Source of the DNA: a virus
Length of the DNA stretch: 23,061 nt
IMG/VR virus record: IMGVR_UViG_3300035206_000570
Coordinates: 1-23,061 of that record
Direction: 5' to 3' (one strand)
A program made the translations under genes and the position numbers. Below the pieces are notes generated by a model, which was given only the letters and a program-made list of their open reading frames with translations, was not told the origin of the DNA and searched no databases. Of the stretch, positions 4,575 through 13,315 are shown in pieces; the stretch's first letter is position 1, and every line of letters starts with the position of its first letter.

Positions 4575-5072
4575 ATGGCTATCTCCAACGTCCCCAAAAA
4601 TTTCCGCGACGGCACCCTCCTCATTGAGGACGGGACGGGCACGCCCATCGCTGTCACCGTCCAGTACGAGGCCGGGGACTTCTCCGGCTCCGGCTTCCGG
4701 GAGGGGCAGACGGCGGTGGAGATGATCCTCGACCGAGGATCATTCCACGCGGCCCGGAAGACCAACTTCGAGCCGCCCACGTTCGGCTTCACCGCGAACT
4801 TCACCGACCTGAGCGACGGCACCGAAAAAACCCTGTTCGACGCCATCAACAAGACCGGCGCGTTCGCTGGGGGCGTCTCGACGCTGGGCGCGAACGCTGA
4901 GGTATGGGCGCTGAAGTTCACGTGGACCATCGCCGGCATCATCCACGGCGACGCCGCTGACCATTCGCTGGTCCTTGAGAACTGCGTCTGCTCCATCGAC
5001 ATCGCGGAGGGATCTCCTAACAACACCTTCTCGATCTCGGGAACCACCTTTGGCGACGTGACCCCCGGCTGA
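4575..5072 (+). CDS. Major tail tube protein
   Basis: A 165-residue, β-rich, Gly/Thr/Asp-rich protein with the composition of phage tail tube subunits. It has an early GTPIAVTVQYEAGDFS strand pair, a central long loop, and a DHSLVLENCVCSIDIAEG region leading to a final β-strand. Tail tube subunits polymerise as stacked hexamers around the tape measure. It lies just before the frameshifted tail assembly chaperone, which is the diagnostic position. The start carries the AGGAG-TCCACC-ATGGCT initiation region that recurs at two other virion genes here. Confidence 0.82.
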   Translation: MAISNVPKNFRDGTLLIEDGTGTPIAVTVQYEAGDFSGSGFREGQTAVEMILDRGSFHAARKTNFEPPTFGFTANFTDLSDGTEKTLFDAINKTGAFAGGVSTLGANAEVWALKFTWTIAGIIHGDAADHSLVLENCVCSIDIAEGSPNNTFSISGTTFGDVTPG

Positions 5073-5099: not shown

Positions 5100-5495
5100 A
5101 TGGAATCCACCACAGTCACACTCGGCGGTAGGCTGGTCCAACTCCAGCCGCCCCCCTTCGACCACCGCGCGGACATCGCGCTGACTCTGGCAGAAGCGCA
5201 GGGCAGGGGCGACAACCTCGCCGCCTACGCTCGCATCGGCTGGGCCGCCCTTGGACTCTGCCTTCCGGAGAGCTGCCAACCCAAGGCTCGCTACGCCGGC
5301 AATCCCGAGAGGCTGGGGGCCTACGCGGCGACGGTCTACCGCGAGCTCCGCGGTCGAGGCTGGACCCACAACGAGATCCAGGCCGCCTGCCGCGACGCCT
5401 GCAACGCCATCGTCGATGATGTCCTCCTCCCCTCCGCAGAGGCCTCGACACGCGAGGATTTTTCCGGAGCCCTGGGGGGGCCAACGACCTCGTAG
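5100..5495 (+). CDS. Tail assembly chaperone, unshifted (G-like) product
   Basis: A 131-residue helical protein located between tail tube and tape measure, the invariable position of tail assembly chaperones (lambda gpG). It binds the tape measure and recruits tail tube subunits. The N-terminus is a short β-hairpin (TTVTLGGRLVQLQPP), then helices through RELRGRGWTHNEIQAACRDA. The zero-frame stop is a TAG 12 nt after a G7 run; a -1 slip at that run bypasses it and adds 83 residues (see the fusion entry). A GAGGCCCCCTC leader precedes the start. Confidence 0.82.
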   Translation: MESTTVTLGGRLVQLQPPPFDHRADIALTLAEAQGRGDNLAAYARIGWAALGLCLPESCQPKARYAGNPERLGAYAATVYRELRGRGWTHNEIQAACRDACNAIVDDVLLPSAEASTREDFSGALGGPTTS

Positions 5496-5731
5496 CCCTC
5501 CACCTCTCCCTCACCTACGGCGACCACCCTCGCTGGTTCCACAACCTCACCCGCCGGGAGCGAATCGACGTGTTGGCCTATGCCCATATCCGCGGCCTGT
5601 TCACCGTGACGGGTGAGGAACGCCATGGCCCACCGGCCGCGGCGCCAGCCCCGACCGCGCCGCTCAAGCGTCAGGTCAAGGGCACCGCCGCAGGACGGAA
5701 CTGGTTCGCCAGCCTGCCGGGGGTGACATGA
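5100..5731 (+). CDS. Tail assembly chaperone, -1 frameshift (GT-like) fusion product
   Basis: At the heptamer G GGG GGG (5474-5480) the zero frame reads GGG GGG. Slipping back one base continues at GCC AAC GAC and stays open for 83 codons to a TGA that overlaps the next gene's ATG. The fusion is 210 residues. The added part (ANDLVALHLSLTYGDHPRWF, then NLTRRERIDVLAYAHIRGLF) has the look of a T-domain: aromatic/basic, helical, with a proline-rich tail. Lambda-type phages make the same two products at a fixed ratio. The +1 frame is open too, but reads as an out-of-frame shadow with low-complexity composition. Confidence 0.8.
5474..5480 (+). promoter_or_regulatory. -1 programmed ribosomal frameshift slippery site (G7)
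   Basis: G GGG GGG in the zero frame matches the X XXY YYZ rule for -1 slippage, and both tRNAs can re-pair perfectly. It lies 12 nt before the zero-frame TAG. The -1 frame is open for 83 codons with phage T-domain character. No clear downstream stimulatory stem was established by eye. Confidence 0.8.
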
Positions 5732-6165
5732 TGGCCATCAAGGTGGGCAAGGGGCGCTCCGAGGTGACCATCACCGGACCGCTGGCCGACGGCCTGGAGC
5801 GGGAGATCCGGAGCCTGCTGGGACCGCTGGCCGATCGCATGGACGCCGAGGCCTCACGCATCCTCAACCAGGAGATCCGCCCGAACTGGCCGGTGAAGTC
5901 TGGCGACTCCCTGCGCGCATGGAAACAGACCCTGCGGGTGCACCCGGGGACGTTCGTTGTGGAGGCGGTGCTCCACAACCCGCTCCGGCGCACCCGACAC
6001 ATCAAGAGCAAGAAGATCGGGAAGAATAGCCTCTACGCCGGGGGCCGCTACCGCTCGCCACTGCAGGTCCACGCGCGAGAGCCGGTGAAGGCCGCCCGCA
6101 AGCTGCTGAAGAAGGAATTGCCCACGCTCCTCGCCCAGCATCTGCAGGAGGCGGTCGATGGCTGA
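5728..6165 (+). CDS. HK97 gp10-like neck/tail protein
   Basis: A 145-residue protein. The order helix, NWPVKSGDSLRAWKQTLRV, β-strands with HNPLRRTRHI, then a basic C-terminal helix (VKAARKLLKKELPTLLAQHL) matches the HK97 gp10 / minor capsid family. That family shows a central P-x-x-S/T-G-x-L-R motif, here PVKSGDSLR. Such proteins act at the head-tail joining stage. It is somewhat unusual to find it after the tail chaperone rather than before the tail tube. The start overlaps the stop of the frameshifted chaperone by 3 nt (ATGA), and its end overlaps the tape measure gene by 8 nt. Confidence 0.62.
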   Translation: MMAIKVGKGRSEVTITGPLADGLEREIRSLLGPLADRMDAEASRILNQEIRPNWPVKSGDSLRAWKQTLRVHPGTFVVEAVLHNPLRRTRHIKSKKIGKNSLYAGGRYRSPLQVHAREPVKAARKLLKKELPTLLAQHLQEAVDG

Positions 6166-8341
6166 GACTACCCTCCAACTCGGGGCCGACCTCTCCAAGC
6201 TGCGGCGGGAGCTGGCGAAGCTCCCGAACATGACGGAGAAGGCCGCGCAGCAGGCGCTCATCGCTCTGGAGAAGCAGGTCAACAAAGCCGAGAAGGCCGC
6301 GAAGGCTGCTAACGCCCGCCTGAAGAAGAGCGGCAAGGACACGGTGGGCAGCCTGCGTGGAGTCGAGGAGGCGGCCGGCGACGCCGACGCCGCGATCAAG
6401 GGCGTCGGCGGGGCGGTCGGGTTGTTCGTCCCCGAGCTCGAGGACGCCGCGATCGTGGTCGCCGAGATGGGTGCGGGCATCGAGGGCATGATCCGGATGG
6501 GCCGCGCTGCGCTTCCGGTGCTGGGCGCGATGGCGCTCGCCGCTGCCGCCGCTGGCGCGGCGTACAAGGTGTGGTCCGAACGCACAGAGCGGCTGAAGGC
6601 GAACACTGCCGCGGTGGCCGCGGCGACCGGGCACCACCGCACCATGGTGGACAAGATCCGCAGTGCCAGGGAGGATCTGCTCGTCACGCTGGGGAAGGTC
6701 AGCGAGAAAGAGCGCGAGATCATGGCCGTCCGGCGCGCGGCGCTGATCGAGGCCAGCCCGCGACTCCAGGAGTTGACCACGCAGATCACGGCGCAGCAGC
6801 TCGCCGTCGACAAGTCGAAGCGGTCCTACGACGCAGCGGCCGCCTCCGCCGCGGCCGCTGCTGACTCTGGAGACATGGTGGCAGGTGCCACCGCTCGGGG
6901 CTCCCAGCAGCTTCAGGCTTCAGCCAAGTCGCGCGCGAAGTCGCTCAAGAAGGAGCGCCACGAGCTGGAGAAGCTGGAAGGGCAGCGAGCGCAGGCGATC
7001 GCGGACATGGGGGAGTTGATCGCAGTCGGCATCCAAGACATCGAGATGACCGACAAGGCGACCAAGGCCGCCGCCGCCGCCGCTGCCGCCATCAGCGACC
7101 AACGCGAGGAGCGCTCTCGCCTGATCACCCTGATTAATGCCCAGCGCGACCTGGAAGGCCAACTCGGCGCTGCGTCGATCGCTGCCGCCCAGGCCCAGGC
7201 CGGCGCGCTGACGTCTGTGGATGCCGCTCTCGCAGATCAGGAGATGGCGATCCTGCGCGCGCAGGCGACCTACGATGAGGCGGCCGCCGCGCGGGTCCAG
7301 GCGATGGCACGCGAGGAGGCGCTGATGCGCAACCTCGGTACCGCCTCCGATGCCCTGGCACAGCGAGAGAAGGCCATCCAAGCGGAGTATGAGCGCAAGC
7401 TCAGCCTCATCGCGCAGATGGAGGAGGCTGGCGTCAGCCTGGAGGAGCGGGAGGCTAAGGCGTCCGCCGTAGAGTTGGAGCGTGAGCAGCAGATCGCGAC
7501 GATTCGGCAGGAGAACGAGCGCATCCACCTGGCGATGATTGAGGCGCGATCTGAGGCTGAGCGGCTGGCGATGGAGGACGCCGCGCGAGCCGCCGAGGAG
7601 ATGCGGGAGCGGATGCGGGAGGTCATGGGTATGGCGACAGCCTCTGTTGCAGCCCTCGGCGGCTTGGCTGCGGAGAACTCGCAGGCCTCCGAGCAGCGGG
7701 CTGAGGAGTCTGCAGCGCGCCATGAGGACATCCTGACGGCCCTCGATGAGGCGCAGACCGAGTTGACTACGGCGTCTTCCACACGTGAGCGGGACGCTGC
7801 GGAGGCGAAGATCGCCATCCTGCAGGAACAGGCCGCAGCGGAGAAGGAGCGCCAACGGCAGGCAGAACAGGCCGCAGAGCGGGCCGCTCGGGTGGCCCGT
7901 GCCCTGTCGATGATGCAGATTATCGGCTCCACCGCCAGCGCCATCACCAAGGAGATGGAGAAGGGGTTTCCGGCAGCGATCCCAGGTATGGCGCTGGCCG
8001 CGATCACTGGCGGTGCACAGCTCGCCAAGGCCGCAGCGCAGCCCACATCGTTCGACGTAGGCGGCATCATCGGCCGCGGCGGGATGGTGACGTCAGCTCC
8101 TGACCAGGTGCCGATCCGAGCCCTGCCCGGTGAGGCCGTGCTGAACCGCTCCGCGGTCTCTGCGCTGGGTGAACGGGGCGTGGAGAGGCTGAATCGTGGA
8201 GACTCGGGCGGGGGGCTCACCGTGGTCCCTGTCCCGACCTACCGACATTTCGATCGCTTCTACTCTGCGGAGGTCAGGCGAGGCGGAAGCCTGTCGCGCT
8301 CGATCCGAGGGTCGCGCCGAATCGGTCAGCGGGAGGTCTGA
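6158..8341 (+). CDS. Tape measure protein
   Basis: A 727-residue, Ala/Glu/Lys-rich, almost wholly helical protein, the longest coiled-coil in the window. It fills the tail lumen and sets tail length. A hydrophobic segment (about residues 116-138) and a second one (about 607-628) fit membrane-insertion elements used in DNA ejection. The C-terminus has the usual tape measure signature DQVPIRALPGEAVLNRSAV. Using the known scaling of about 1.5 Å per residue, the tail should be near 110 nm. A strong AGGAGG ribosome site lies within the upstream gene. No peptidoglycan hydrolase motif is seen. Confidence 0.9.
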   Translation: MAETTLQLGADLSKLRRELAKLPNMTEKAAQQALIALEKQVNKAEKAAKAANARLKKSGKDTVGSLRGVEEAAGDADAAIKGVGGAVGLFVPELEDAAIVVAEMGAGIEGMIRMGRAALPVLGAMALAAAAAGAAYKVWSERTERLKANTAAVAAATGHHRTMVDKIRSAREDLLVTLGKVSEKEREIMAVRRAALIEASPRLQELTTQITAQQLAVDKSKRSYDAAAASAAAAADSGDMVAGATARGSQQLQASAKSRAKSLKKERHELEKLEGQRAQAIADMGELIAVGIQDIEMTDKATKAAAAAAAAISDQREERSRLITLINAQRDLEGQLGAASIAAAQAQAGALTSVDAALADQEMAILRAQATYDEAAAARVQAMAREEALMRNLGTASDALAQREKAIQAEYERKLSLIAQMEEAGVSLEEREAKASAVELEREQQIATIRQENERIHLAMIEARSEAERLAMEDAARAAEEMRERMREVMGMATASVAALGGLAAENSQASEQRAEESAARHEDILTALDEAQTELTTASSTRERDAAEAKIAILQEQAAAEKERQRQAEQAAERAARVARALSMMQIIGSTASAITKEMEKGFPAAIPGMALAAITGGAQLAKAAAQPTSFDVGGIIGRGGMVTSAPDQVPIRALPGEAVLNRSAVSALGERGVERLNRGDSGGGLTVVPVPTYRHFDRFYSAEVRRGGSLSRSIRGSRRIGQREV

Positions 8342-8342
8342 C

Positions 8343-11300
8343 ATGGCGACCGACAAGACCGGCACAACCTGGCGCGGCCTGCTGATTCAAGACCCGCGGA
8401 TCTCCGAGGTTTGGGAGGAGCAGAGCAACTACACCCAGGCTGATCCCCAGCCCGGTGAGGTTGAGGCGCAGAGCTTGGATACCCGCCTGGTGCTGGCCCC
8501 CGCGGGCTCCATGACTGCGGCACAGTCGCTGCGCATCCAGACGCAGGAGCCTGGACACCCAGGCCCGGGCGGCGGTGGGTTCGTGTGGCGCGAGGCTGCC
8601 GACGGCTCCACGGAGTACCGCGGCAGAGACGTCCCAAACGTGATCACAGGCTACGAGGCCCTGGAGTGGGTCAATGCGGTCACGACGATCACAGCGACCA
8701 AGGACCCACACATCGTCACGCTGTCCGATGGCACGCTGGTGGTGATCTACCAGGATGCGATCTCGGGCTTCCAGCGTCTTCGGGTGAAGACTCGTACCCC
8801 TGGCGGATCATGGTCGTCAGCGACAACGGTTCGCTCTGATGTGACGCTCACAGCGGACTACCTGCCTTGTCTGGCCGTCCTCCCGGGTGACGAGCTGATC
8901 GCGGCGCACCGCTACGTTGAGAGCGCGCAGGACGAAGAGAACGTCAGGGTCTACCGCTCCACCGACAAGGGGACGTCGTGGTCCCTGGTGAGCACCGGAG
9001 CGCTGCGGACGCCCATCAGTAACGACGCCAGCACCGGCTACCTCTGGCGCCGGATGCGGATGGCGTACATGGGTGGCCAGGTGCTCCTGATGGTCGACGT
9101 CATCTACAACGGGGCATCCAATACACGAGACCGGTATTTCCAGTACGCCTCCGACTCGTTCGGCGGCCGCTTCGACCAGGTCGAGGCTGGGCCCGACCTC
9201 CTGTGGGTAGCGTTCCCATCTGTCCTATCAATAGGGACCGCGTTCGTTGTGGCCTACATCGGTGAAGATACGGGGCCCGATCTTCGCGCTGTCCGCGTGT
9301 TGGCTGGAGCGTTTCAACCGTTCTCGACGGCCGAGGAGAAACGTATAAACGAGCCCTACATCTACCACGGAGAGCCAGACGCAGGCCTCGACTACCTGGT
9401 AGACGGCGACGGAGCCGCACTGATCGCTTCGGACGGGGCGTTGTACGTCCTCTCGCGAATCGTACTCGATGCCGGCCTCACCAACTACTACAACTGGTGC
9501 ACGATCGCGCGGTCCTACGACCTGGGGGAGACCTGGGAGTCGTTGGGGTCTACATCAATCCTGATCGCGAAGACCGACGGGGTCTGGTATCAAGCGGACC
9601 CCACCAACCCGCCAGCGGTGACGACGACGCACCCGGTCAACTTCTCGGCGGCCGAGAGTGAGGGCCGTATCGTGGTGGTTTGCAACCACGCCGCCAACCC
9701 GGGAACCGAGGGCGCCAGCTTGTCTGCGCTGTACCTGGGGGGAGCATCCCAGGTGACGATGCCGGGCACGCGAGACGCCCGCAAGGACGCCACCCGTTCT
9801 ACATGGGATCAGGTGGGCCTGCCCTGGGATCTGCCTGGCGACACCGTCTGGACTGGCGCTGGAGTGGCTACTACCGAGCAGCTCGCCAACGCCCGGCTGG
9901 AGCTGGTGTGCGCGGCCGGGGAGACCCGGCGCTACAGCATCACCCCGACGGCGACTGTCGACGAGGGCCTCATCGTCCGTCACACGCTGGAGGTGAACGC
10001 CGGGGGTGATGACGCCGCTGACCGGATCAACATCCGCGTCCGGCTGGACGACGGGGTCAGCGGCTATGACATCGCGGTCCGCTTCGACGTCGCTGGGTTC
10101 TCCGTCTACGATCGAACCGCAGCCGCGAACGTTGGATCGCTAGTGTTCGTCGCTAAAGAGATCGACATCATCATCGCGCTCGGGAAAGGCAAGGTCGCGA
10201 CCTGGTACCGGACGCGCAGCCACAACGCCGATCGTGAGTGGACGGCCGGCCCCGCGGGAACGGTGAGCAACAGCGGCGTCCCGGTCGGGAGCAATCTGAT
10301 CCGTTGGGGCGTAGTCGCCACGGGTGCCGCGACAGCAGACGTATACTGGTACGAGTGGCACGCGATCACTGGGGGCACTGTCGGGCCGGGTTTGCACGAC
10401 GGCTTCACCAACCCCGATGACCTATTCCCCGCCTACTACCCGGGCTTGGGGTTCAAGGCGTGGGTTGATGGGGGTGCCGCGATTCGGGCTGCTGACGGCC
10501 CCGCCTTCAGCGGCGATGAGTACAACTACGATGCGCGCTACGGCTTCCCTGTTGAGCGTATCTTCCCCGCGGAGAGCCCGACACCACGGGTCCGGTGGCG
10601 CTCAACAGACACCGGTGAGCAACAGATCGCGTTCAAGCTTGATGACGGCCTGGGGGCCTTCGACGATAGCGGGCCCGGAAACGACACTATCGGGTTCTGC
10701 TTCTTAGGGGCCAACTTCCGCACCGGCAAGATCCAGGGCTACGTGGCCCTCTCGGGCTGGACTGACCTGGTGACGTTTGATGCCGCCGCCGAGACAACCC
10801 CGCTGGTGGGTGGCTGGGTGAGGGAGGGGAACACCCTCGTCCAGGGTGGGGGCCTTGACGACGACGGCCCGATCTTCGAGGCGGGCGAATTCGCGGGCGG
10901 CTACGTGGACATGGGTGGCACGACGTTCCGGCGAATCGTGACCAACACCGGCGGCATGGGTGGCGCCGGAGGCTACGCCGGCAAGCACTCCACCATCATT
11001 CTTGATGGCGTAGAACTCACCGATCCGGTGTCTGGTGTTGTGATGCGGGTGGTTCCACGTAACTTCACCGTCCTACTCAACCTGCTCGGGGCGAGGTACG
11101 CCGGCTACCGTGTGGTTATCGACGCACAGTCCAACCCCGACGGCTACTTTGAGTTGGGGAACCTCATCGCTGGATGGGTGGAGGTCTTCGGTCACCAATA
11201 CAGCCGAGGGCGGGTCATCGAGGTGGAGGCGGGCGCAGGGGCCGCGCGCTCCTCTGACAACGTGACCCGTTCTCGGTTCATCTCCCCACCAGCGCGAATC

Positions 11301-11678
11301 GTGGAGTTGGCCTGGGTGGAGGGTGTGGACACGGGGCAGATCTGGGGCGACAGCGCCAGCCCGGACTACATCAAGGCGAGCACGTCGATGGGCGCTGAGG
11401 CTGTGGCGCTGACTCGGGATACCCCGCTCCAGCTCGCCGGGCTGGTGGATATTCTCCATCGGCAGGGGTCGGCCGATAATCCCACCGTGGTCTACCTGCC
11501 CTCTGTCGGCGTCGTCACCAACGGCACCGACGTCATCACGTTTGGGCGACGCCGCAGCTTCATGGCTGGGCGGGTTGATCCCCAGATTCGACTTGAGAGC
11601 GTGCTTGGAGACGAGAACGCCCACAGCCTTGGTGAGGTCTTCCGGGTCGCGCGCGCGATCATCCGGGAGATGGTCTGA
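8343..11678 (+). CDS. Large tail protein with Asp-box β-propeller and lectin-like regions
   Basis: A 1111-residue protein, 1 nt after the tape measure stop. A longer frame reaches 147 nt upstream, but the ATG used here has a GGGAGG site and avoids a long overlap. Two sialidase-type Asp-boxes are visible: S206-T-D-K-G-T-S-W213 and S391-Y-D-L-G-E-T-W398 (S-x-D-x-G-x-[TS]-W), within a β-rich region of about residues 100-500 that would suit a six- or seven-bladed propeller. About residues 500-690 look like a concanavalin/LamG-type jelly roll (IRVRLDDGVSGYDIAVRF), followed by a Gly/aromatic-rich domain. The C-terminus ends in a basic segment. Likely a tail tip or receptor-binding protein that contacts surface glycans; catalytic residues of a sialidase cannot be assigned. 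Confidence 0.72.
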   Translation: MATDKTGTTWRGLLIQDPRISEVWEEQSNYTQADPQPGEVEAQSLDTRLVLAPAGSMTAAQSLRIQTQEPGHPGPGGGGFVWREAADGSTEYRGRDVPNVITGYEALEWVNAVTTITATKDPHIVTLSDGTLVVIYQDAISGFQRLRVKTRTPGGSWSSATTVRSDVTLTADYLPCLAVLPGDELIAAHRYVESAQDEENVRVYRSTDKGTSWSLVSTGALRTPISNDASTGYLWRRMRMAYMGGQVLLMVDVIYNGASNTRDRYFQYASDSFGGRFDQVEAGPDLLWVAFPSVLSIGTAFVVAYIGEDTGPDLRAVRVLAGAFQPFSTAEEKRINEPYIYHGEPDAGLDYLVDGDGAALIASDGALYVLSRIVLDAGLTNYYNWCTIARSYDLGETWESLGSTSILIAKTDGVWYQADPTNPPAVTTTHPVNFSAAESEGRIVVVCNHAANPGTEGASLSALYLGGASQVTMPGTRDARKDATRSTWDQVGLPWDLPGDTVWTGAGVATTEQLANARLELVCAAGETRRYSITPTATVDEGLIVRHTLEVNAGGDDAADRINIRVRLDDGVSGYDIAVRFDVAGFSVYDRTAAANVGSLVFVAKEIDIIIALGKGKVATWYRTRSHNADREWTAGPAGTVSNSGVPVGSNLIRWGVVATGAATADVYWYEWHAITGGTVGPGLHDGFTNPDDLFPAYYPGLGFKAWVDGGAAIRAADGPAFSGDEYNYDARYGFPVERIFPAESPTPRVRWRSTDTGEQQIAFKLDDGLGAFDDSGPGNDTIGFCFLGANFRTGKIQGYVALSGWTDLVTFDAAAETTPLVGGWVREGNTLVQGGGLDDDGPIFEAGEFAGGYVDMGGTTFRRIVTNTGGMGGAGGYAGKHSTIILDGVELTDPVSGVVMRVVPRNFTVLLNLLGARYAGYRVVIDAQSNPDGYFELGNLIAGWVEVFGHQYSRGRVIEVEAGAGAARSSDNVTRSRFISPPARIVELAWVEGVDTGQIWGDSASPDYIKASTSMGAEAVALTRDTPLQLAGLVDILHRQGSADNPTVVYLPSVGVVTNGTDVITFGRRRSFMAGRVDPQIRLESVLGDENAHSLGEVFRVARAIIREMV

Positions 11679-13315
11679 TGCCGGCGCACCACCGCTCCAA
11701 CCTGGTCCGCGGCGGCACCCTGGTCTGGCTGGTCGAGGTGGAGTACGCCGGCCGGCTCCACAGGTGGGCCTCGCTGCCGCTGACGCTCGACTCGGACGAT
11801 GGGGAGCTCACCTTCTTTGGTGAGCTGGGTGACGTGCAATTCGCCGAGACGATGGACCGCCTGTCGACCAGCGTGTCAGCGGCGGAGGTGTCGATCGAGC
11901 TACTGTTCCCCGTCAACCTGATTCAGGCCCATCGGCGGGGCCACCATCTCCAAGGTGCGCTGGCGACCGTGGCGTCCGTCGTCACCCGTGGCGGTGTCCC
12001 GGTCACAGCCTATGAGGGGCGTGTCGTCCACCTCGCTGGCGAGGTTTCCCAGCCGCAGTACGGCGACCCGGAGCGCCATGAGGGCTGGGCCGCTTTCACC
12101 ATCGTGGGAAGCGCTGCCGAGGACGTCGCACGCCTGCTCTCACCAGCGGCGCGCATGGGGCCTGATACGTGGTCGTCGACAGACGGCGCGGTGACCGACA
12201 ACCACGGCAAGCCTTACCCGATCATCATCGGCGCCCCAGGTCAGTACCTCGATGGTGGGGAACTGCGGCGCCACGGGGTCAGCCCTGCCTACCCCGTCGA
12301 ATTCGACTCGACCCCCGGCGCTGGCGTCGAGAGGCTGCTCATCGCGGGCCACCATGTGACCGAGACGACGGTCGGAATTGCTGCCGATGACGAGCCAATG
12401 TTCTTCGCGTCCGCTGAGAACACCGCGGACAACTTGGGGCACGCCGTCGCTGTGGTGGACATCACCGGCGCCTCGGCCGGCGTGCGCGAGGCCAACAGCT
12501 ACCGGATCGCCTGGTACATTGCGGTCGGCCACGGCCTGTACAACAACTACGGCCCCGGCGGCCTAAGGGGCTTCGGCGACGTGTTGCGCTGGGCGCTGGC
12601 GCAGTCATCAATCCCCATCGATCACGGGGCTTTCAGGGCCGCAGCGTTTCGCCTGAATGCCTACAAGATCGATACATTCATCAATGATCCCGACGCGGCG
12701 CCGTGGGACTGGCTGCAGCCCATCCTGGAGCTGCTCCCTATCACCATCCGCCGTGGACCCGCCGGGCTCTACCCTATTCTCCACGACACTGGTGCTGCCA
12801 CGCCAGCAGACGCTGTGTCGATCACCGCGGGCCCCGACTTCCGACGGTTCGGACCGGTGCAGGTGGAGCGCGACACTGCCGACCTGACGACCGAAATCAC
12901 CATCGAGTTCGCGCCGCGGTCCGGCTCCCAGGACTACGGGCGGGTGCTCCACCTGTCCGGCAGCGCCCAGCCACAACTGCGAGGGGAGCGCTCGACGGCC
13001 TACTCTCGCATCGCTGCCTCCCGCCACGGCCCCCGCCGAGAGACCGTCTCGACGCACACGGTCTACGACGAGGCCACCGCCGCCGCCATCCTGCGGGACT
13101 TGGTGCGCGAGCGCTCCTCCGTTGTGCTCACCCTTGAGTACGAGGCCGACCCGTCGTGGGGCTGGCTGCCGCTGGGGGGGGCGGTAGCGCTGACCGACGC
13201 CGGGATGTTCTACACCGACCAGCTCGGCGAGATCGCTGCGAAGCGATGGAGCGGAACCCGCTGGCTGTTCTCCATCCTATTTCTGCTCGACTCCGCTCGA
13301 GACAACCGCGCGTAG
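11678..13315 (+). CDS. Tail hub / baseplate-like protein
   Basis: A 545-residue protein whose ATG shares one base with the preceding TGA. It starts VWLVEVEYAGRLHRWAS, then alternates short β-strands and loops. A segment with GKPYPIIIGAPGQYL at about residues 170-185 and a C-terminal LPLGGAVALTD segment with LYNNYGPGG earlier suggest a hub-like β-barrel protein. Tail hub/distal tail proteins with cleft-like domains follow the tape measure in siphoviruses. The specific family cannot be named with confidence. It may carry the fibre attachment sites. No lysozyme or protease motif is apparent. Confidence 0.62.
   Translation: MPAHHRSNLVRGGTLVWLVEVEYAGRLHRWASLPLTLDSDDGELTFFGELGDVQFAETMDRLSTSVSAAEVSIELLFPVNLIQAHRRGHHLQGALATVASVVTRGGVPVTAYEGRVVHLAGEVSQPQYGDPERHEGWAAFTIVGSAAEDVARLLSPAARMGPDTWSSTDGAVTDNHGKPYPIIIGAPGQYLDGGELRRHGVSPAYPVEFDSTPGAGVERLLIAGHHVTETTVGIAADDEPMFFASAENTADNLGHAVAVVDITGASAGVREANSYRIAWYIAVGHGLYNNYGPGGLRGFGDVLRWALAQSSIPIDHGAFRAAAFRLNAYKIDTFINDPDAAPWDWLQPILELLPITIRRGPAGLYPILHDTGAATPADAVSITAGPDFRRFGPVQVERDTADLTTEITIEFAPRSGSQDYGRVLHLSGSAQPQLRGERSTAYSRIAASRHGPRRETVSTHTVYDEATAAAILRDLVRERSSVVLTLEYEADPSWGWLPLGGAVALTDAGMFYTDQLGEIAAKRWSGTRWLFSILFLLDSARDNRA

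Follow-up and report, generated by a model that had tools for sequence, protein, structure and literature searches.

The gene at positions 5100-5495 (+ strand) of the window, a virus record of 23,061 bases that is listed as linear, without end repeats and perhaps a fragment, raises the question of where a ribosome would leave the zero frame to extend its 131-residue product. The initial annotation had proposed that a run of seven G residues (G7, 5474-5480) acts as the site of a -1 frameshift and thereby makes a GT-type tail chaperone. The elements on which this proposal was built are present as described: G7 lies in phase as G_GGG_GGG within the open reading frame 5100-5495, where it is read CTG GGG GGG CCA in the zero frame, the zero-frame stop TAG (5493-5495) follows 12 nt past the last G, 83 sense codons can be counted in the -1 frame from 5480 up to the TGA at 5729-5731, and this TGA overlaps the ATG (5728) of the next gene. 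The -1 frame is open already from 5420, that is, 5' of G7, and its openness therefore cannot place the slip at G7. Long G runs are no rarity in the window, whose GC content is 63-72% per kb; its + strand carries seven G runs of at least six residues, one of which, a G8 at 13174-13181, is longer than G7. As suggested by our comparison with related sequences, the longer form of the tail chaperone is very probably made by a one-base ribosome slip; the proposal of a frameshifted G/GT chaperone is well supported by a conserved extension and by the gene order, whereas the slip itself most likely occurs not at G7 but at the heptamer GGATTTT at 5456-5462.

The gene order that points to tail assembly comprises, all on the + strand, a major tail (tube) protein-like gene of 165 aa (4575-5072), the G/GT gene, a 145-aa gene (5728-6165) and a tape measure protein-like gene of 727 aa (6158-8341), which is the position of a G/GT gene, with each of the matches being modest. 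The product of 4575-5072 was recognized by its tblastn relatives and by comparison of its structure model (pLDDT 67.4, moderate) with the PDB, which gave no match under E 1e-3, the best tail tube match having E 1.3e-3 and lambda gpV 0.23. The 727-aa protein matched phrog_24 (tape measure) weakly (E 0.0022) and its counterpart in the relative L011 by BLASTP (E 2e-11 over 127 residues), and seven of the eight relatives' proteins encoded at the tape measure place matched tape-measure PHROGs at E <=0.01 (best 2.3e-11). The gene at 5728-6165 showed weak similarity to the L011 gene in the same place (E 0.008, a single comparison). In all ten relatives inspected, among them the near-copies L003 and L005, GT and the tape measure gene are likewise separated by an ORF, 168-207 aa long, and the two of these that were scanned gave no PHROG match at E 0.01. 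The ORF 8196-11678 (+), located 3' of the tape measure gene, gave a sub-threshold match to the Pfam family BNR_2 (E 1.9e-4, 21.3 bits, cut-off 31.4).

The zero-frame product was identified as G-like by its ORF, its homologues in the relatives and its structure model (pLDDT 88.4). VIA-align placed 5ir0 (Z 8.2), 3klu (Z 6.8) and 2ob9 (Z 5.6) ahead of the next row at 2.9, and these middling scores are support for, not proof of, a predicted tail chaperone fold. Foldseek searches of the G model against PDB and BFVD gave no match under E 1e-3; the best BFVD match (E 1.3e-3) was an uncharacterized protein of an uncultured marine virus, and several of the weak matches (E 0.18-1.3) were named tail assembly chaperone. 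PHROG and Pfam profile searches of G, T and the tail protein returned no credible match. Membership of the locus in the G/GT-type tail assembly chaperone class, as a remote member, nevertheless appears well supported by sequence comparison.

The relatives used in this comparison were retrieved through the upstream 165-aa tail gene, which as a tblastn query revealed 62 relatives in viral contigs and, searched as an alignment, 151 relatives, the best 80 of which were used. One further relative came from a MAG contig of a genome collection; a relative in the 4,025-base contig JAEMRB010000084.1 (L064), binned with a Chloroflexi MAG, gives a weak possible hint of the host. Many of the relatives' loci were identical contigs fetched twice, and junctions were accordingly counted as distinct 150-nt sequences, 74 with the window included, many of them near-copies and together forming 40 clusters below 90% identity. 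The window protein is a distant one, its best identity to the relatives compared being 36% and its end branch on the tree 2.36. The G protein alone, used as query in a viral scan, gave 15 stretches and 0 confirmed ones. Since tblastn with the tail tube, fusion and tape measure proteins found 0 matches among 50,697 annotated phage records, the phage lineage of the window appears to be without an annotated isolate in that set.

The T-like -1 extension of 89 aa (5462-5731, coding 5462-5728, stop TGA 5729-5731) was recovered by profile in 49 of 63 sequences at first and later in 120 of 144. The remaining 24 sequences have at most 418 nt past the tail gene match, too short for the extension, and none of them was counted as a counterexample. 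Aligning the -1 frame of related phages, as the initial annotation had suggested, revealed a conserved extension that overlaps the 3' end of G, so that the refuting outcome named there, related phages lacking such an extension, was not seen; the alignment places the frame switch most probably at GGATTTT in place of G7. It is unlikely that T has a start of its own, since the similarity of the -1 frame to the relatives begins exactly at the slip site.

Many G ORFs of the first set of relatives carry GGGTTTT or AAATTTT, with 24-33 nt from there to the last base of the zero-frame stop, and in the full sample an in-phase NNNTTTT was found at the homologous place in every one of the 74 distinct junctions. 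TTTT was sought from -15 to +18 nt around the model start and was found at offset 0 in 70 junctions and at +3 in 4; the background of same-phase TTTT in these sequences, counted between -300 and +180 nt, was 6 out of 11,757 positions. Conservation both of the -1 extension and of the T run 5' of G7 is more than chance would give. Measured from the site to the last base of the stop, the distance is 33 nt for 47 junctions, 30 nt for 13, 24 nt for 9 and another value for 5; the window, whose zero frame ends 33 nt past GGATTTT, has the commonest value. In three loci (L128, L132 and L137) GGGTTTT is followed immediately by a zero-frame stop (TAA/TGA), at 3 nt compared with 24-36 nt in the other 71 junctions. 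In view of this conservation, the gene in all likelihood undergoes a programmed -1 frameshift at GGATTTT (G_GAU_UUU, next base U at 5463), by which a tailed-phage tail assembly chaperone gene would yield G-like and GT-like products.

The constant part of the site is its 3' half: the identical A- or U-type YYY of a canonical X_XXY_YYZ heptamer is present as TTT followed by T in 74/74 junctions, and the run is T4 in 59 and T5 in 15 of them. The triplet before TTTT is GGG in 40 junctions, GGA in 19, AAA in 4, GGC in 3, GAC in 3 and TGC, GAG, CAG, AAC or GGT in one each, so a canonical XXX (GGG, AAA) precedes TTTT in 44. GGATTTT, the form of the window, is thus second in frequency, and GGA occurs in 10 of the 40 clusters below 90% identity. 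As GGA (5456-5458) is no canonical XXX, re-pairing in the P site is expected to be poor at G_GAU_UUU. Seven different P-site codons precede U_UUU among the relatives, and the preceding triplet requires a minimum of 17 changes on a quick tree, in which 33 of 71 inner branches are weak and some branches, including that of the window, are long; U_UUU stays constant. A fixed U_UUU with a drifting triplet, as read from these alignments, is the one unusual point of the system. UUU is a minor Phe codon in the window (7 UUU vs 62 UUC in 11 mechanically chosen ORFs). Phe121 is the sole invariant column among 40 G proteins, which is no separate evidence because the rows were chosen at loci where TTT had been found.

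The two candidate sites predict proteins that differ at the junction. A slip at GGATTTT would give 121 + 89 = 210 residues, next to the 131-residue G, with the predicted protein ...EDF-FRSPGGANDLVALHLSLTY, the junction ...EDFFRSPGGAND... and the spanning peptide EDFFRSPGGANDL; a slip at G7 would give ...EDFSGALGG-ANDLVALHLSLTY, with the junction ...EDFSGALGGAND... and the spanning peptide EDFSGALGGANDL. The former agrees better with the relatives, which read F-YRSPRGGADL where the window reads F-FRSPGGANDL, and one of which (L030) reads F-YRSPRGGADLTALHLGLKY. Against a fusion profile of 21 representatives, with the window left out, the fusion from GGATTTT scored 98.5 bits and that from G7 87.0. 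Across the 18 nt that separate the two sites, the window and 10 relatives share 43% identity in the -1 frame (mean BLOSUM 2.40) and 8% in the zero frame (mean BLOSUM -0.63), the sample being those 11 representatives, out of 22, whose 33-nt distance has no gaps. For all 55 pairs of these 11 representatives, the identity was 0.59 (-1) vs 0.45 (zero frame) over the first 18 nt and 0.55 vs 0.49 from site to stop, a modest contrast, and no third-position excess was found among the changes of the -1 frame in the 55 pairs (188, 161, 178). A small frame contrast without third-position excess is as expected for overlapping frames and is no proof of selection.

G7, located 18 nt 3' of GGATTTT and inside the conserved -1 coding sequence, is the sole in-phase XXXYYYZ found between site and stop in the 74 junctions, and only the window has it. 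Given its absence from the other 73 junctions and the conserved -1 coding, G7 most likely serves as glycine codons of the -1 frame, within Gly-Gly-Ala, and at most as a piece of a downstream stem. That it has in addition been acquired as a second in-phase slip site beside U_UUU, yielding two GT isoforms at most six junction residues apart, is very improbable. Such tandem use overlaps with a slip at GGATTTT and adds to it, and would, if true, amount to a double-chance frameshift. Both heptamers lie in the overlap, in phase and 5' of the zero-frame stop, the window is alone among the 74 junctions in having a second one, and an all-G heptamer is not a named exception among the E. coli shifters in the quoted part of one report (PMC4066793). 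The fact that none of the other 73 junctions shares the second heptamer speaks against it, and since GGG is frequent here, at 58 of 272 Gly codons across 11 ORFs chosen mechanically, chance suffices to explain its presence.

Slippage on G7 in place of GGATTTT, as initially annotated, would produce E-D-F-S-G-A-L-G-G-A-N-D at the junction and is very improbable. It has the right phase, lies 12 nt before the stop, fits X_XXY_YYZ exactly and yields a fusion that can still be aligned to the profile at the score given above. In E. coli, 61 of 64 X_XX.Z_ZZ.N heptamers shifted above threshold with the strong IS3 stimulator, G_GG.G_GG.G is not one of the three exceptions named in the quoted part of that report, and all-purine motifs tend toward better shifting (PMC4066793), so that G7 may be able to act as a shifter; 'six' and 'threethree' are also among the phage motifs of PRFect in the section cited here (PMC10885494). 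These general properties are outweighed by the relatives: with the all-G site present in 1/74 distinct junctions, the conserved FRSPGG codons would not be read in the -1 frame after a slip there, and the score falls 11.5 bits below that of the fusion from GGATTTT. The same partial account of E. coli sites states that GGN A-site codons shift worse than UUN on average and gives G_GG.G_GG.U without stimulator the lowest value quoted (PMC4066793). A search of one literature collection found no paper joining tail assembly chaperone, frameshift and GGGGGGG.

Transcriptional slippage, by which the mRNA would be altered in length at T5 (5459-5463) or G7, is suggested by both being homopolymers and by T5 occurring at the site in some relatives, and is less probable again: T4, which is all that most junctions contain, is a short run for transcriptional slippage, and the enrichment of Shine-Dalgarno-like motifs described below fits a ribosomal event better. 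That the G run was misread or misassembled, in a record that is perhaps fragmentary, and one continuous gene thereby split, is barely credible, for homopolymers are error-prone but the same-phase split recurs in the relatives, and the site-to-stop distance of the window, shared with most junctions, argues against a miscounted run. For the reasons given for each, a main slip on G7, slippage during transcription and an error in the sequence were all rejected.

Possible stimulators of the slip at GGATTTT were sought on both sides of the site. By the criteria printed in one report, as far as cited here (PMC4066793), a Shine-Dalgarno-like motif is located at stimulatory distance in 57 of 74 junctions and in 33 of 40 clusters below 90% identity; in the window, one of those 57, it is GAGG at 5439-5442 (+ strand). 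At control positions such motifs occurred in 511/1554 cases (33%) upstream and 742/3024 downstream, and the enrichment may come in part from conserved Glu/Gly/Val codons. Downstream of the site, a hairpin was predicted at 5475-5501 (arms 5475-5481 and 5495-5501) with G7 in its 5' arm, for which a stimulatory role is possible; in a comparison with shuffled sequences, three overlapping stretches 3' of the site gave folding z values of -0.17, -1.75 and 0.00, not clearly above the shuffles. Averaged across 70 loci, structure in the 60 nt past the site somewhat exceeds that of the neighbouring sequence (mean z -0.82); the window's own 60 nt do not stand out in this way (rank 0.63), and no common downstream fold was seen by eye among 10 of the 70 loci.

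Sequence comparison thus revealed a conserved site, a conserved extension and the gene order, and from these we infer the slippage itself, its rate, its stimulators and the function of the products. Most ribosomes would terminate after reading 5100-5492, the product being the 131-residue G-like protein. The upstream GAGG may pair with 16S rRNA and hold up a minority of ribosomes, which would slip back one base at G_GAU_UUU when the P site holds GAU and the A site UUU; tRNA-Phe may then re-pair with the preceding UUU and the -1 frame would be read to 5728, with the 210-residue GT-like fusion as the result. If lambda is a guide, the tape measure protein may be bound by both G and GT, and tail tube subunits may be recruited by the T part. 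In the quoted data, which come from E. coli reporters, a strong stimulator makes U_UU.U one of the active tetramers, and codons of the UUN and AAN type in the A site shift better, on average, than those of the CCN and GGN type (PMC4066793).

The heptamer G_GAU_UUU is identical to a Pea enation mosaic virus and umbravirus shift site, which has been tested in Pea enation mosaic virus, a plant RNA virus; in the account cited, full re-pairing is available there only for the A-site tRNA (PMC4737148). In the Pea enation mosaic virus experiments quoted from this source, shifting was 112% of wild type with the site changed to GGGUUUU, 36-40% when re-pairing in the P site was prevented, and near background when the U's were mutated (PMC4737148). 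Comparable exchanges of the P-site triplet appear to occur naturally among the relatives of the window, which also include the forms listed there for other umbraviruses (AAAUUUU) and BYDV (GGGUUUU) (PMC4737148). Common ancestry is not implied, as the site of Pea enation mosaic virus works with eukaryotic ribosomes, in a replicase gene and with a large 3' structure. Also comparable are the Z_ZZN tetramers of IS elements and E. coli reporters, in which, in the portion cited, U_UUU is a fixed element and Shine-Dalgarno-like stimulators are known (PMC4066793), as here; in contrast to these, the window has a phage structural gene, and its family a canonical heptamer in the majority of junctions. 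By motif name (two, one and four identical bases) GGATTTT also fits the 'twoonefour' motif of PRFect, described, in the section cited, from annotated phage frameshifts (PMC10885494).

With the probable slip position corrected, the predicted fusion protein differs at the junction, and the locus illustrates that an attractive canonical heptamer can act as a decoy in GC-rich phage DNA. The family moreover presents a single frameshift site in a range of naturally occurring P-site variants, which bears on the role of the P-site codon in setting the G:GT ratio.

The system is otherwise ordinary in kind, the device being common among tailed phages, and a conserved -1 frameshift in tailed-phage tail assembly genes was reportedly described by Xu, Hendrix and Duda in 2004. 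The lambda slip site is GGGAAAG, and the window differs from lambda in its probable slip site GGATTTT, in having G and T proteins without PHROG or Pfam match and in carrying one gene between GT and the tape measure gene. A gene in this place has been reported in HK97, SPP1 and KL1, as given in the part of the source cited (PMC3483164). The predicted fold of G resembles the HK97 tail assembly chaperone (PDB 2ob9) over 86 residues, at the middling Z score given above and with 9% identity. With lambda, as gpG and gpGT are described in the cited part of the literature (PMC5009743), the window shares the order of tail tube gene, G/GT and tape measure gene, a short G, a -1 extension starting near the 3' end of G and, as predicted here, two products from one start.
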